From an uncultured Christensenellaceae bacterium (GTDB lineage: Bacteria; Bacillota; Clostridia; Christensenellales; Aristaeellaceae): a DNA stretch of 33,139 bases. The stretch lies in the NCBI GenBank assembly GCA_905236495.1, contig CAJOPV010000086.1:1-33139 (forward strand). The letters are read 5' to 3'. Made by a program: the position numbers and the translations under genes. The notes beneath the pieces were generated by a model. That model had not been told where the DNA came from. It made no database searches and saw only the letters and a program-made list of their open reading frames with translations. How positions within the stretch are numbered: the stretch's first letter is position 1; each line of letters starts with the position of its first letter. This document shows, piece after piece, positions 15,364 through 21,483 of the stretch.

Positions 15364-15831
15364 ATGATGAATCTGCTGCGGCTGTTTTCCCGGAAGCCCA
15401 TGTTTTCCGACGGGGAAATCGACCTGGTGCTTTCCAACCAGGAGGTGGCGGACGCATCCTGCGGCATTGAGGACGGGTATCTGTTCTGCATCTATCGGAC
15501 GGGCGCCCGGGATTATGTGGGGTATGTGAGCCTGCGGCTGGGGGAAAGCCCCGCCCTTTATTACCTGGGCCACATCGGCTACCGCATCGAGGAAAAGCAT
15601 CGGGGCCACGGCTACGCGGAAAAGGCCTGCCGGTGCATGCTGCCGCTGCTTCGGCGGCTGAACCTGGACAGCGTCGTCATCACCGCCAACGTGGAAAACC
15701 TCCCCTCCCGCCGCACGGCGGAAAAGCTGGGCTGCGCCCTGGAGCGCATCGCCCCCGTGCCCCCCGCTTATCAGGGCATCTGCGCCGGAGCGCGGTATAA
15801 GTGCCGGTATATCTGGCGCATGGGGGATTAG
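15364..15831 (+). CDS. GNAT family N-acetyltransferase
   Basis: YYLGHIGYRIEEKHRGHGYAEKACRCMLPLLRRLNLDSVVITANVENLPSRRTAEKLG is a GNAT acetyl-CoA binding signature. Confidence 0.85.
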   Translation: MMNLLRLFSRKPMFSDGEIDLVLSNQEVADASCGIEDGYLFCIYRTGARDYVGYVSLRLGESPALYYLGHIGYRIEEKHRGHGYAEKACRCMLPLLRRLNLDSVVITANVENLPSRRTAEKLGCALERIAPVPPAYQGICAGARYKCRYIWRMGD

Positions 15832-15877: not shown

Positions 15878-16651
15878 GTGCGCTTGACAGCCAAGGGCGT
15901 GGAAATCCATTACGAGCAAAGGGGCGCCGCGGGGCCGCAGGTGCTGCTTTTGCATGGCTGGGGCTGCACCTGCCATCATTTCGATCCCATCGTGAACGCC
16001 CTGGAAGGGGACTTTCGCCTGACCGCGCTGGATTTTCCCGCTCACGGGGAATCAGGCCGGCCCCCGGAACCCTGGGGCGTCGGGGAATTCGCGGCGTGCA
16101 CCCGGGATGCAATAAAACAGCTTGGCATTTCCCCCTGCGATATCATCGCCCATTCCTTTGGCGGGCGGGTGGCGCTTCAACTGGCGGCAAGCTGGCCCGA
16201 ACTGGTAAACCGCCTGGTGATCACCGGCGGGGCAGGCCTCAAAAAGCCCCAGACGGAGGAGCAGAAAAAGCGCAGCGCGGCCTACCAGAAAAAGAAGGCC
16301 CGGCTGCTGTCGCTGACCAAGCTGCCCGTCGTCGGCGCGGCGGCGGAAAAGGGGCTCAAGGCCCTGCAGCAAAAGTACGGGTCCCCGGATTACCTGGCGC
16401 TGGACGATGAAATGAAAAAGACCTTCGTCAAGGTGATCTCGGAGGATCTATCTCCCCTCCTGCCCACCATTCAGGCATCCACCCTCCTCGTCTGGGGCGA
16501 AAAGGATACGGAAACGCCGCTGTGGATGGGGCAGAAAATGGAGCGGGAAATCAAAGACGCGGGCTTGGTGGTCTTTGAAGGAGACGATCATTTCGCGTAT
16601 CTGCACCAGTGGCCCCGGTTCGTGCAGGTCCTGCGGGCGTTTTTGACGTAA
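15878..16651 (+). CDS. Alpha/beta hydrolase
   Basis: LLHGWG oxyanion region, nucleophile elbow AHSFGG, acid region WGEKDTETP and H in GDDHFAYL; GTG start. Confidence 0.88.
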   Translation: MRLTAKGVEIHYEQRGAAGPQVLLLHGWGCTCHHFDPIVNALEGDFRLTALDFPAHGESGRPPEPWGVGEFAACTRDAIKQLGISPCDIIAHSFGGRVALQLAASWPELVNRLVITGGAGLKKPQTEEQKKRSAAYQKKKARLLSLTKLPVVGAAAEKGLKALQQKYGSPDYLALDDEMKKTFVKVISEDLSPLLPTIQASTLLVWGEKDTETPLWMGQKMEREIKDAGLVVFEGDDHFAYLHQWPRFVQVLRAFLT

Positions 16652-16667
16652 AGGAGGCGAAGCGGCA

Positions 16668-18305
16668 TTGGATCATCTGATGTTATTCTGGCTTCCCTGC
16701 CTGTGCATGGCGGGGGGGATGCTGCTTGCCGCCCGGAGGCTGACCCATTACTTCCAGCTGGAAAGCTATCAGTTTTACGGCTATTTCAAAACGGTGCGCC
16801 GGCAATGGACCCGGGCCGTGCTGCCCTGCCTTGCTTTGGGGGGCGCCTACCTGGGGCTGTACGCCGCGCTGGTATTCGGCGTCGTCAATTTGGAGGAAAT
16901 CACCGAAAAATCAGGCTGGACGGCGGGAAAGACCGTGCTGGCGGCGTGCGTGTCCGCTTCGATGCTGGCCCTGGGCTGGGTGATCCGGCGCCTGGGCATG
17001 ATGAAGGCGGAAAAAAAGAAATTCGCCCTGACGGCCCGGATGAAGCGGCTGTACCTGGCTTTGGCGCTGGTGCTGGCCCTGTTGATCGTGATTGTGTTTT
17101 TCGCTGCGCGGCGGGAAACGGCGGGCGTTTGGGTCGCCGCTTCCGCGCTGGTTTTGCCCCTGACGGTGGCTTTGGCGGGGCTGCTGATCTGGCCCGTGGA
17201 AAGGCTCATCTTCCATTTATACTTCCGGGACGCGGAAAAGAAGCTGCTCAAAAACGAGCGCCTGATCCGCATCGGCATTACGGGCAGCTACGGAAAGACC
17301 AGCACCAAATTCATCCTGGCGGATATCCTGTCGCAGAAATACAACGTGCTGGCGACCCCGGCCTCCTTTAACACCCCCATGGGCGTTACAAGGATCATTC
17401 GGGAGCGGCTGACCCCCGCCCATCAGGTGTTCATCGGCGAAATGGGAGCCAGGCACGTGGGGGAGATCAAGGAGCTTTCCCGCCTGGTGCACCCCCAGAT
17501 CGGCATTCTGACCGCCGTGGGGCCCCAGCATTTGGACACCTTCAAGACCCTGGAGCGCATCAAAAAAACCAAGTATGAGCTCATCGAGGCCCTGCCGGAG
17601 GACGGGCTGTCCGTGTTCCTGGATGACGGGGACATCGTGACGGGCCTGTATCAGAAGACCGGGAAGGCCCGGCTGCTGGCTGGCAGGGAAGGGGCCGACG
17701 CCTGGGCGGAGGACGTATCCGTATCCCCTCAGGGCAGCCACTTCACCCTGCGCCTCAAGGGCTGGGAGCCTATTTCCTGCCAGACGGCGCTGCTGGGGGA
17801 GCATAACATCCGCAACATCCTGGTATGCGCCCTGGTGGCGAAATACTTAAATCTTTCCCCGGAGCAGATCCGCCGGGGCATTCAGAACCTGAAGCCCGTG
17901 GAGCATCGGCTGCAATTGCTGAAGACAGGGGGCGGCGTCACCGTCATTGACGACGCCTTCAACACCAATCCCCGGTCCAGCAAAGAGGCGCTGAAGGTGC
18001 TTTCCTCCTTCCCGGAAAGGCGGATCATCGTGACCCCGGGGATGGTGGAGCTGGGGGAGGACGAAAGCCGGTATAACGAGGAATTCGGACGGGCCATGGC
18101 GGGAAAAGCGGATATCGCCGTGCTGGTGGGAAGGAAGCATACGGCGCCCATCAGAAAGGGCCTGACGGAAGCGGGCTTCCCGGCGGACCGTATCTATACC
18201 GTCGGCAGCCTGCAGGAGGCGGTGACCACCGTGAACGGCCTGATCCGTCCCGGGGATACCGTCATGTATGAAAACGACCTGCCCGACCATTACAGCGAGC
18301 AGTAA
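16668..18305 (+). CDS. Membrane-anchored Mur ligase, MurF-like (UDP-MurNAc-tripeptide--D-Ala-D-Ala ligase family) with N-terminal ~5-TM domain
   Basis: About 190 N-terminal residues with about five hydrophobic segments, then Mur ligase core GITGSYGKTSTK, EMGARHVGEIKEL, GILTAVGPQHLDTF, VIDDAFNTNPRSSKEAL, VTPGMVELG; TTG start with AAGGAGG SD. Confidence 0.88.
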   Translation: MDHLMLFWLPCLCMAGGMLLAARRLTHYFQLESYQFYGYFKTVRRQWTRAVLPCLALGGAYLGLYAALVFGVVNLEEITEKSGWTAGKTVLAACVSASMLALGWVIRRLGMMKAEKKKFALTARMKRLYLALALVLALLIVIVFFAARRETAGVWVAASALVLPLTVALAGLLIWPVERLIFHLYFRDAEKKLLKNERLIRIGITGSYGKTSTKFILADILSQKYNVLATPASFNTPMGVTRIIRERLTPAHQVFIGEMGARHVGEIKELSRLVHPQIGILTAVGPQHLDTFKTLERIKKTKYELIEALPEDGLSVFLDDGDIVTGLYQKTGKARLLAGREGADAWAEDVSVSPQGSHFTLRLKGWEPISCQTALLGEHNIRNILVCALVAKYLNLSPEQIRRGIQNLKPVEHRLQLLKTGGGVTVIDDAFNTNPRSSKEALKVLSSFPERRIIVTPGMVELGEDESRYNEEFGRAMAGKADIAVLVGRKHTAPIRKGLTEAGFPADRIYTVGSLQEAVTTVNGLIRPGDTVMYENDLPDHYSEQ

Positions 18306-18317
18306 AGGGAGGACGAA

Positions 18318-19529
18318 ATGAGCAAGATTCAGCTGGGCGTTATTTTCGGCAGCCGCACCTGCGAGCATGAGGTAGCCATCATCAGCGCGGTGCAGCTGAT
18401 GCGCAACGTGAACCGGGAGCGCTATGACGTGATCCCCATTTACATCAGCCAGAAAGGCGAATGGTTCACCGGGGACGCGCTGCTGGATATCAACACCTAC
18501 ACCCCCTTCGATCCCTTCAGAAAGGGCATTTTGCCCGTGCATCTGGATTTGACCGCCGGAAGCGGCGCGCTGATGCATTATGTGCCCCCCAAGGGCTTGC
18601 TGGGCGGCGGGAAGGAAGAAGTGGTGGCCCGGCTGGACGTGGCGATCCCCGTGATGCACGGGCTGCACGGGGAGGATGGCTCCGTCCAGGGCCTGCTGGA
18701 GCTGGCGGGCATCCCCTATGCATCCACCGGCATCACCGGCTCCGCCGTGGGAATGGATAAGATCACCATGAAGCGGTTTTTCCGGGGCTGCGGCTTCCCT
18801 GTGCTGCCGGACTGCGATTTGACCCGCACCCAGTTTGAGCACGACACCGACGCCGCCATGGACAAAGTGGAAAAGGCGCTGGGCTATCCCGTGTTCGTCA
18901 AGCCCGCGTGCCTGGGCTCCTCCATCGGGGTCAGCCGGGCGGACGACCGCACCTCTCTCCGGGAGGCGCTGACGCTGGCCTTTTCCTACGATCGGCGGGT
19001 GCTGGTCGAAAAGGGGCTGGACCGGCCCATCGAAGTCAACTGCTCCGTGCTGGGGTACGACGGGGAGAGAAAGGCCTCCGTGCTGGAAATGCCCAACAGC
19101 GGCGCCGGATTCCTGGATTTTTCGGAAAAATATCTGGCGGGCAGCGGCGGCAGCAAGGGCATGGCGAGCTTGAAGCGCATCGTGCCGGCCCCCATCGGGG
19201 AGGAATTGACGCAGGAGCTGCAGGCCCTTTCCCTGCGCATCTTTGACGCCATGGACTGCAAGGGCGTGGTGCGCATCGATTACATGCTGGACAGAAACAG
19301 CGACGATTACTTCATCACCGAGATCAACACCATCCCCGGCTCCCTGGCCTATTCCCTGTGGGCGGAAAGCGGCATCAAGTACGGCGCGCTCATCGATCAG
19401 ATGGTGAGCTGCGCCTTCAGGGCCCAGGAGGAAAAGGACCGCAATTCCTTCGCCTTCACCTCCGATATCCTGTCCGGCGTGCAGCTGGGCGGGAAAACGG
19501 GCAAAATGGGCGGCAAAATGAAATTCTGA
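18318..19529 (+). CDS. ddl: D-alanine--D-alanine ligase
   Basis: ATP-grasp ligase: GVIFGSRTCEHEVAIISA, HGLHGEDGSVQGLLELAGIPYASTG, VKPACLGSSIGVS, EINTIPGS; loop FLDFSEKY. Confidence 0.94.
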   Translation: MSKIQLGVIFGSRTCEHEVAIISAVQLMRNVNRERYDVIPIYISQKGEWFTGDALLDINTYTPFDPFRKGILPVHLDLTAGSGALMHYVPPKGLLGGGKEEVVARLDVAIPVMHGLHGEDGSVQGLLELAGIPYASTGITGSAVGMDKITMKRFFRGCGFPVLPDCDLTRTQFEHDTDAAMDKVEKALGYPVFVKPACLGSSIGVSRADDRTSLREALTLAFSYDRRVLVEKGLDRPIEVNCSVLGYDGERKASVLEMPNSGAGFLDFSEKYLAGSGGSKGMASLKRIVPAPIGEELTQELQALSLRIFDAMDCKGVVRIDYMLDRNSDDYFITEINTIPGSLAYSLWAESGIKYGALIDQMVSCAFRAQEEKDRNSFAFTSDILSGVQLGGKTGKMGGKMKF

Positions 19530-19547
19530 TTTTCCGGGAGGCATACT

Positions 19548-20669
19548 TTGCAGTATCGCGGCACGTACATCCGGGTGGATTTAAGCGCCATCGCGGAGAA
19601 CGCCCGGGCGCTCCGGGCGGCTATCGGGCCAACGCCCCACATGCTGGCGGTGGTAAAGGCCAACGCCTACGGCCACGGCCTGGTGCCGGTGGCGAAGGCC
19701 GCCCTGAGCAGCGGGGCGGACTGGCTGGGGGTGGCGATCCCCGAGGAAGGGGAGGCCCTGCGGCAATCGGGCATCCAAGCCCCCATCCTGGTGCTGGGCG
19801 CGGTGAACGAAAAAGGCGCCCGGGCCAGCGTGCGCTTCGGCTTGACCCAGGCGGTGTTCGACCGGGAACGGGTGCGGTATCTGGAACGGGCGGCTTCGGA
19901 CCTGAACGAAATGGCCCGGGTGCATCTTAAGTGCGATACGGGCATGGGCCGCATCGGGGTCAGGACCCGGGAAGAGCTGACGGGGGTGCTGAAGGAGATC
20001 GAGCGCTGCCCCCACGTGCTGCTCACCGGCGCCTTCACCCACATGGCGGACGCTGACGGGGAGGAAGCGGATTATTCCCTTTCCCAGATCCGAAAATTTG
20101 ACGAGATGCGGGCTCTTTTGCCGGAGGGCATTATCTGTCACGCCGCTGCCAGCGCCGCGGCAGTCAGGTATCCTCAGGCCCGGTATCAGATGGTGCGGCA
20201 GGGCATTTCCCTGTACGGCTGCGCCCCGGTGCCGGGCACGCCCCCGGTGCGCCCCGCCCTTTCCTGGCATACGGAGATCGCCTATGTGAAAACCGTTCCC
20301 GCCGGGGCCTGCGTCAGCTACGGCTGCACCTGGCAGGCGGAGAGGGAAACCCGGGTGGCGACGCTGCCCGTAGGCTACGGGGACGGGTATCACCGGGCTC
20401 TGTCCGGCAAAGCCCAGGTGCTCATCGGCGGGCGGCGCTGCCCGGTGATCGGGCGGGTGTGCATGGATCAGATCATGGCGGACGTAACGGCCCTGCCCCC
20501 GGAGGATTGCCAGATCGGCGCGCCGGTGGTATTATTGGGAAGACAGGGACAGGAAGAGATCCCGGCGGAGGAACTGGCGGCCTGGGCGGGCACCATCAGC
20601 TATGAGATGCTCCTGGCGGCAACGGCCCGGGTCCCCATCCTGTATGACGGCGAAACGGAAGCGGAATAA
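19548..20669 (+). CDS. alr: Alanine racemase
   Basis: AVVKANAYGHGLVPVAKAAL PLP-lysine motif, HLKCDTGMGRIG, LPVGYGDGYHRALS, VIGRVCMDQIMADVT. Confidence 0.95.
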   Translation: MQYRGTYIRVDLSAIAENARALRAAIGPTPHMLAVVKANAYGHGLVPVAKAALSSGADWLGVAIPEEGEALRQSGIQAPILVLGAVNEKGARASVRFGLTQAVFDRERVRYLERAASDLNEMARVHLKCDTGMGRIGVRTREELTGVLKEIERCPHVLLTGAFTHMADADGEEADYSLSQIRKFDEMRALLPEGIICHAAASAAAVRYPQARYQMVRQGISLYGCAPVPGTPPVRPALSWHTEIAYVKTVPAGACVSYGCTWQAERETRVATLPVGYGDGYHRALSGKAQVLIGGRRCPVIGRVCMDQIMADVTALPPEDCQIGAPVVLLGRQGQEEIPAEELAAWAGTISYEMLLAATARVPILYDGETEAE

Positions 20670-20688: not shown

Positions 20689-21483
20689 ATGCAAAGCAAG
20701 AAAGCGCAGAAGAAACTGGTCTATAAGCCCTACATAAAAGGCGCCTGGCTTTCCGGCAGCGCGGCGCTGCGGGGCCTTCGCATCCTGGCGTATTATGCGG
20801 CCTTTGCGGTGGCGTATGTGATGATGGGGATCATGCTGAATTTCGGCAGCCCCATCCTGCGGTGGCTGGTGAATATGCTGGTGGTGGCGGTGTGCTTTAT
20901 GATCCTGTTTTCCGCAGGCTCCCGGGACGGAGAAAGCGAAGTGACGCTGGGCGAGATCGCCTACGCCCATGAGGAAGCGGGGCAGCAGGTGACAAAAGAG
21001 GAAAAGGACCGCTGCTATCATCCCCTGAAGGGGTGGGTCACCTTCCTGTGCGCGGCGGCGGTGCTGTGGCTTTTGACGGTGCCCCACGCCCTGACCGCCC
21101 AGCCCCAGACCTACGCCCTGCAAGCCCTGCCCAGCTGGGTGGGCACCTTCCGCGGGCATGAGGAGCTCACCGTACCGCTGAGCTATTACGAGCAGACCGC
21201 CGGCATCACGGTGCGGGATATCCTGCACCTGATCGTGCGCATTTTGATCTTTCCCTTCTCCAACGCCGTGAGCACCCGCAGCGTGGAAGGCGTTCTGACC
21301 ATGGATCGGCTGAGCCCGCTGCTGGTTTTGATCCCCGCCCTGGGCTATCCCATCGGGTATCTCACCGGGCCCCGGACAAGGGCCTCGGTGCATGGGGACA
21401 TCAGCGCCAATCAGCGCCGCCGGCAGCGGAAGGAAAAGAAAGCCCGGCAAGCCCGGACGGAAAAGAAAAACGAGCTGATTTGA
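20689..21483 (+). CDS. Hypothetical multi-pass membrane protein
   Basis: 264 aa; about four hydrophobic segments (e.g. ILAYYAAFAVAYVMMGIML, WLVNMLVVAVCFMILF, WVTFLCAAAVLWLLTV, LLVLIPALGYPIGYL) and a basic C-terminus; no family recognised. Confidence 0.75.
   Translation: MQSKKAQKKLVYKPYIKGAWLSGSAALRGLRILAYYAAFAVAYVMMGIMLNFGSPILRWLVNMLVVAVCFMILFSAGSRDGESEVTLGEIAYAHEEAGQQVTKEEKDRCYHPLKGWVTFLCAAAVLWLLTVPHALTAQPQTYALQALPSWVGTFRGHEELTVPLSYYEQTAGITVRDILHLIVRILIFPFSNAVSTRSVEGVLTMDRLSPLLVLIPALGYPIGYLTGPRTRASVHGDISANQRRRQRKEKKARQARTEKKNELI

Follow-up and report, generated by a model that had tools for sequence, protein, structure and literature searches.

Among the genes of the 33,139-nucleotide contig CAJOPV010000086.1 (assembly GCA_905236495.1, an uncultured Christensenellaceae bacterium), which was analysed whole and is called the window here, one encodes a ligase in which the core of MurF, the enzyme that attaches D-alanyl-D-alanine (D-Ala-D-Ala) to the peptidoglycan precursor, is fused to a membrane domain. 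The locus raises the question of whether this protein serves as the MurF of the organism or acts beside a normal one, and a preliminary description of the sequence had left both options standing, a membrane-localised replacement of MurF and a paralogue acting on another acceptor. The first is now strongly supported and the second is not, the membrane ligase being the only MurF in most of its carriers. Very probably, both this organism and many other Bacillota rely on it as their working MurF, and it would form a two-component system with an alpha/beta hydrolase whose gene lies just upstream.

Four plus-strand genes follow one another in the window, encoding the alpha/beta hydrolase (257 residues; 15878–16651), the membrane-integral MurF-type ligase (545 residues; 16668–18305), a D-alanine–D-alanine ligase (Ddl; 18318–19529) and an alanine racemase (Alr; 19548–20669), with intergenic gaps of 16, 12 and 18 nucleotides. 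Both their close, same-strand spacing and the product names given in the preliminary description hold good, the names by Pfam and NCBIfam searches; Pfam finds Abhydrolase_1/6 in the first protein, Mur_ligase_M and Mur_ligase_C in the second, the N- and C-terminal Dala_Dala_lig domains in the third and the N- and C-terminal Ala_racemase domains in the fourth. The start codons are GTG, TTG, ATG and TTG, in gene order, and a purine-rich Shine–Dalgarno-like sequence can be read 5′ of each. Short gaps, frequent overlaps and the lack of a strong internal terminator are consistent with co-transcription.

The Mur ligases of the window's genome number four: the membrane ligase, MurE and MurD, whose genes flank mraY on one contig (C24), and MurC on another (C79). 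No second MurF-like gene was found in this genome, which is a fragmented assembly of 233 contigs and 80% complete. Because of that incompleteness, relatives were searched as well. Among 60 relatives from genus to order, in which every candidate was scored, 54 carry the membrane type, three carry a soluble MurF above the cut-off, none carries both and three carry neither, the last being genomes of 85–88% completeness. The search was widened to a class sample of 393 genomes, nearly all at least 90% complete, in which the membrane type was called at E < 1e-130, clearly separated from the next matches at 1e-78. The membrane form was found in 63 of these genomes and a soluble MurF above the curated cut-off in 322; only two have both, against 51.6 expected if the two forms were independent (Fisher p = 3e-58, which is indicative only, as kinship among genomes is ignored). 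Six of the membrane-only genomes are single contigs of 99–100% completeness. The two types alternate inside each of ten single families, and the exclusion is therefore not just the effect of one lineage. In a phylum sample, the membrane type is present in 23 of 349 genomes, mostly in families outside the class. The canonical soluble murF that the preliminary description proposed to look for elsewhere in the genome is thus not found there, and the near mutual exclusion extends across the class.

The distribution of the hydrolase follows that of the ligase. A hydrolase profile matches 64 of the 393 class genomes at E ≤ 1e-36, namely the 63 ligase carriers and one further genome (G098), in which the contig ends just past the hydrolase and truncates the ligase gene; the profile matches none of the 320 soluble-only genomes. 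Gene order was compared at 129 loci with a full ligase gene, from both metagenome-assembled genomes and isolates (e.g., Peptoniphilus, Sedimentibacter, [Clostridium] ultunense, and Butyrivibrio). The same-strand order hydrolase–ligase–Ddl is present at 114 of these, and the hydrolase is upstream at 125, with one locus (L152) having it downstream of Ddl; several of the remaining exceptions stop at contig edges. The gap between hydrolase and ligase genes has a median of 8 nucleotides, and 32 pairs overlap. Pairwise distances of the hydrolase, ligase and Ddl proteins correlate (r 0.80–0.86), as is expected if the three travel together. The clustering of these three genes exceeds chance, and by its distribution the hydrolase is an obligate partner of the membrane ligase. 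The preliminary description would have been contradicted by relatives in which the hydrolase is not kept next to the ligase; it is kept, and no genome lacking the ligase has it. Of the four-gene order proposed there, only the hydrolase–ligase–Ddl part is general. Outside the window, Alr adjoins the module at just five loci, all of the same genus, so that a four-gene module was rejected and Alr alone is a lineage-specific addition.

The catalytic part of the ligase is that of MurF. Its match to the curated murF model (TIGR01143, NCBIfam) begins only at model position 70 and reaches 237.6 bits, below the cut-off of 288.6. The Mur middle and C-terminal domains are present, as are the P-loop (TGSYGKTSTK; 17280–17309), which is invariant in membrane and soluble MurF alike, and the catalytic Lys, His, Arg and Asp residues, and a comparison with soluble MurF indicates that the catalytic MurF motifs are retained throughout the membrane type. 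An AlphaFold2 model built with 80 sequences (predicted local distance difference test score, pLDDT, 94.1; predicted template modelling score 0.91) has MurF of A. baumannii and T. maritima as its top Foldseek matches, and the nearest solved structures, too, are MurF without exception, their alignment beginning at about residue 70–118, past the MurF N-terminal domain. The membrane type forms a single clade in the tree (100/100), with soluble MurF as its sister (100/99) and with MurE and MurD set apart from both. Two motifs have changed across the family: KGSR (or KASR) of soluble MurF is replaced near the C terminus by ENDLPD (18270–18287), and NxNN by SxNT. These changes would fit an altered substrate site, without telling which site. 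A second, very divergent MurF-like protein (L072:4964-6412; branch length 2.96) was seen in one genome (G044) that also has a soluble MurF.

In place of the N-terminal domain that binds uridine diphosphate (UDP) in MurF, which is absent, the first approximately 196 residues of the ligase (16668–17255), without a Pfam match, form about five transmembrane helices. The AlphaFold2 model places helices at residues 2–21, 47–69, 85–111, 123–146 and 163–195, ahead of the Mur core. Topology was read from alignment-averaged hydropathy and loop charge: the loop after helix 1 (residues 22–47) has a net charge of +2.4 and that between helices 3 and 4 (108–124) of +4.6, those on the opposite side being near-neutral, and both charged loops are predicted to face the cytoplasm. 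Six residues of the region, Gln30, Tyr34, Thr122, Arg124, Arg127 and Glu178, are invariant in the 80-sequence alignment. Gln30 and Tyr34 belong to a QLESYQ motif after helix 1 (16755–16772), and Thr122, Arg124 and Arg127 to a basic loop between helices 3 and 4 (Lys116–Arg127; 17013–17048); by the predicted topology, all six would lie at the cytoplasmic face, adjoining the catalytic core. The basic loop is a candidate (pyro)phosphate contact. Invariance of this kind would not be expected of a simple anchor.

The proposed mechanism starts with Alr and Ddl, which would supply D-Ala-D-Ala. The membrane ligase would then join this dipeptide, in an ATP (adenosine triphosphate)-dependent reaction at the membrane, to the stem tripeptide of the peptidoglycan precursor, with its membrane domain standing in for the lost UDP-holding domain and with the hydrolase as its partner in a two-component system, as MurT with GatD. 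This addition is suggested because the ligase replaces MurF and is linked to Ddl; we infer both the MurF activity and the physical contact with the hydrolase. Where the acceptor is concerned, one reading, held tentatively at just under an even chance, is that the pentapeptide is completed at the membrane on lipid I or lipid II. MraY would first put UDP-N-acetylmuramic acid (MurNAc)-tripeptide on the lipid carrier, and the membrane MurF with the hydrolase would then add D-Ala-D-Ala to lipid I or lipid II, the membrane domain gripping the lipid pyrophosphate; if this is true, the textbook order of MurF and MraY is reversed. In MurE and MurF, the pyrophosphate of the UDP substrate sits where the N-terminal and middle domains meet (PMC6113224). 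The lipid-linked tripeptide is a good candidate because the membrane domain sits at that same boundary and carries the invariant basic loop. Furthermore, with lipid II as the substrate, a UDP-binding domain would be expected to collide with the membrane (PMC6113224). The missing UDP domain, the invariant residues of the cytoplasmic face and the precedent of GatD/MurT together favour a lipid-linked acceptor with a confidence that is about evenly balanced.

Alternatively, the acceptor may still be soluble UDP-MurNAc-tripeptide, with the membrane domain as a tether beside MraY and the pathway order unchanged, a possibility that we rate somewhat below an even chance. MraY of membrane-type genomes retains its HHH motif, which favours this alternative and counts against the lipid-linked acceptor, and loss of that motif was dropped as a sign of an altered acceptor. 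MurT, which also lacks the UDP domain, could take the place of MurE in vitro with a UDP substrate (PMC3266927), which counts in the same way. Published work describes soluble MurF as associating with MurG or MreB in other bacteria. Against it, the UDP-binding domain has been lost, a mere tether would not require the six invariant residues, motifs on the acceptor or donor side are altered, and the obligate hydrolase is left unexplained.

Far less probable is the explanation that the ligase is a paralogue that loads D-Ala-D-Ala onto a different acceptor, for instance a teichoic or capsular polymer, in cells whose normal MurF has been missed. Several observations do weigh against a MurF replacement, of which the coexistence of the two forms and the divergence in sequence also speak for a paralogue. 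A few genomes have both forms, in the class sample G268 and G375; only the best three to six candidates per genome were scored in the class searches; and the ligase has diverged from MurF, its two changed motifs being at conserved positions, so that the donor or the acceptor could be different. At loci L121, L125, L130 and L199–L201, the carriers of both forms are Sporosalibacterium, [Clostridium] ultunense, Sedimentibacter and two other genomes, and such genomes are useful for asking whether the two forms share one job. Finally, an empty murF position in the dcw cluster proves little alone. None of the genomes sampled from the window's order has murF in that cluster, not even the two with a soluble MurF, whose murF is paired with ddl elsewhere; the empty position was accordingly discarded as stand-alone proof of replacement. 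The near mutual exclusion across the 393 genomes, closed ones included, nevertheless makes the paralogue explanation very unlikely, and a hidden soluble MurF beside it was rejected on the searches of the window's own genome and of the class. Moreover, at two loci the module is in or beside the dcw cluster: L163 has the order penicillin-binding protein–murE–hydrolase–ligase–Ddl–mraY–murD, with the three genes at the usual murF site, and L208 has ligase–Ddl–X–murE–mraY. Eight sampled soluble-MurF genomes of other families have murE–murF–mraY.

The hydrolase itself is predicted to be an active enzyme, because its triad and cap motif are invariant. Ser93, Asp210 and His238 (the Ser-Asp-His triad) and Ser169, Asp171 and Tyr172 are invariant in 73 homologues, as is the cap motif GSxDY, and the oxyanion motif HGWG is conserved. 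Its AlphaFold2 model has a pLDDT of 97.5, and sequence and fold searches for its function return only generic esterases and meta-cleavage hydrolases. As its most likely reaction, put forward with little confidence, the hydrolase would cleave or edit an ester or peptide carried by an intermediate that contains D-Ala or is linked to lipid; by analogy, a GatD-like partner role is another candidate, and confidence in any single one is low. That the hydrolase is an unrelated housekeeping enzyme and a mere neighbour would agree with its generic esterase fold and nearest structures, but is most improbable, because all 64 carriers have it, no genome that lacks the ligase does, and its triad and cap motif are invariant. 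Long open frames in three genomes (G100, G402, G255) were considered as hydrolase fusions, and none is real. At one locus (L060:3684-4454), the C-terminal part of the hydrolase seems frameshifted, with the Asp210/His238 region lost, possibly through a sequencing error. An artefact of incomplete or contaminated metagenome bins, to which the fragmented, 80% complete genome of the window might point, is already refuted by the same arrangement in closed genomes and cultured isolates such as Peptoniphilus and Butyrivibrio, and its likelihood is negligible.

The membrane ligase can be compared with four known systems. It shares with soluble MurF (TIGR01143) the middle ATPase domain, the C-terminal domain, the catalytic motifs, a sister-clade position and the linkage to Ddl, and differs in lacking the UDP domain, in its five-helix membrane domain, in ENDLPD for KGSR, in scoring below the cut-off and in its obligate hydrolase. 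Its function would be MurF-like, although the protein departs from the MurF family in two defining respects, its N-terminal domain and its score against the curated cut-off. The substrates that MurT/GatD amidates are lipid I and lipid II, not UDP-MurNAc-pentapeptide (PMC3266927). It resembles the module in having a Mur ligase core without the UDP domain (PMC6113224) and a hydrolase-type partner encoded by an adjacent gene. However, a membrane domain is missing from MurT, which pairs with a glutamine amidotransferase rather than a serine alpha/beta hydrolase, and the neighbour of the module described here is Ddl, which points to D-Ala-D-Ala addition; the MurT-type C-terminal domain and the GatD glutaminase partner were not found, Pfam giving Mur_ligase_C and an Abhydrolase partner instead.

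Poly-gamma-glutamate ligases of the PgsB/CapB type, like the membrane ligase, carry a membrane segment N-terminal to their Mur ligase core. Their models are absent among the NCBIfam matches of the ligase at E ≤ 0.001, and the tree and structure searches place it with MurF. Van ligases (VanA/VanG types) are related to the module through Ddl, which is in the same ATP-grasp family. The Ddl of the window exceeds the TIGR01205 cut-off (260.5 versus 245.65 bits; NCBIfam), reaches no Van ligase cut-off and has an EKY-type loop; the loop of module Ddl is EKY or DKY, which we take not to be the D-Ala-D-Lac (D-lactate) form. A Van-type D-Ala-D-Lac module was rejected on these grounds, and none of the module neighbours examined was recognised as a van gene. 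By the models tested, the membrane ligase is neither a MurT/GatD-type nor a Van or Pgs/Cap ligase. Full-text searches of the literature outside subscription journals and preprints returned no description of a membrane-fused MurF.

Both suppliers of the dipeptide are single in the window's genome. The module Ddl is the sole Ddl found, a second Ddl-like match (on C82) being a weak, carbamoyl-phosphate-synthase-like ATP-grasp protein beside pyrimidine genes, and Alr, at 340 bits against an NCBIfam cut-off of 168, is the sole full alanine racemase found. Directly after Alr, a membrane-protein-like gene (20689–21483) without a Pfam or NCBIfam match is kept together with Alr, RsmD and cytidylyltransferase at several same-genus loci (e.g., L051 and L057). 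Between ftsY and the hydrolase lies a GNAT acetyltransferase gene (15364–15831), whose place is kept across the genus sample and not outside the family. The Bacillota-type ligase, mostly with the module, also occurs in records titled Bacteroidales, Rhodothermus, Spirochaetes, Bacteroides, Geomicrobium, Poribacteria and Thiomargarita (L132, L144, L145, L147, L149, L163, L165), which may reflect misassigned bins, contamination or transfer.

MurF, whose step in peptidoglycan synthesis is essential and near-universal, is usually presented as a soluble enzyme. Its exchange for a membrane-built form appears to have taken place in many anaerobes, those of the gut among them. This form is ancient, stands in for soluble MurF in about one-sixth of the sampled class genomes, cultured Butyrivibrio and Peptoniphilus included, and brings along a serine hydrolase to which no part in building the wall is assigned. 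In species of the membrane type, annotation based on the curated MurF model will either miss murF or score it under the cut-off. In these bacteria, a late step in the making of the precursor may take place at a different site or in a different order from that given in textbooks, and both the order of the pathway and the role of the hydrolase can now be tested directly.

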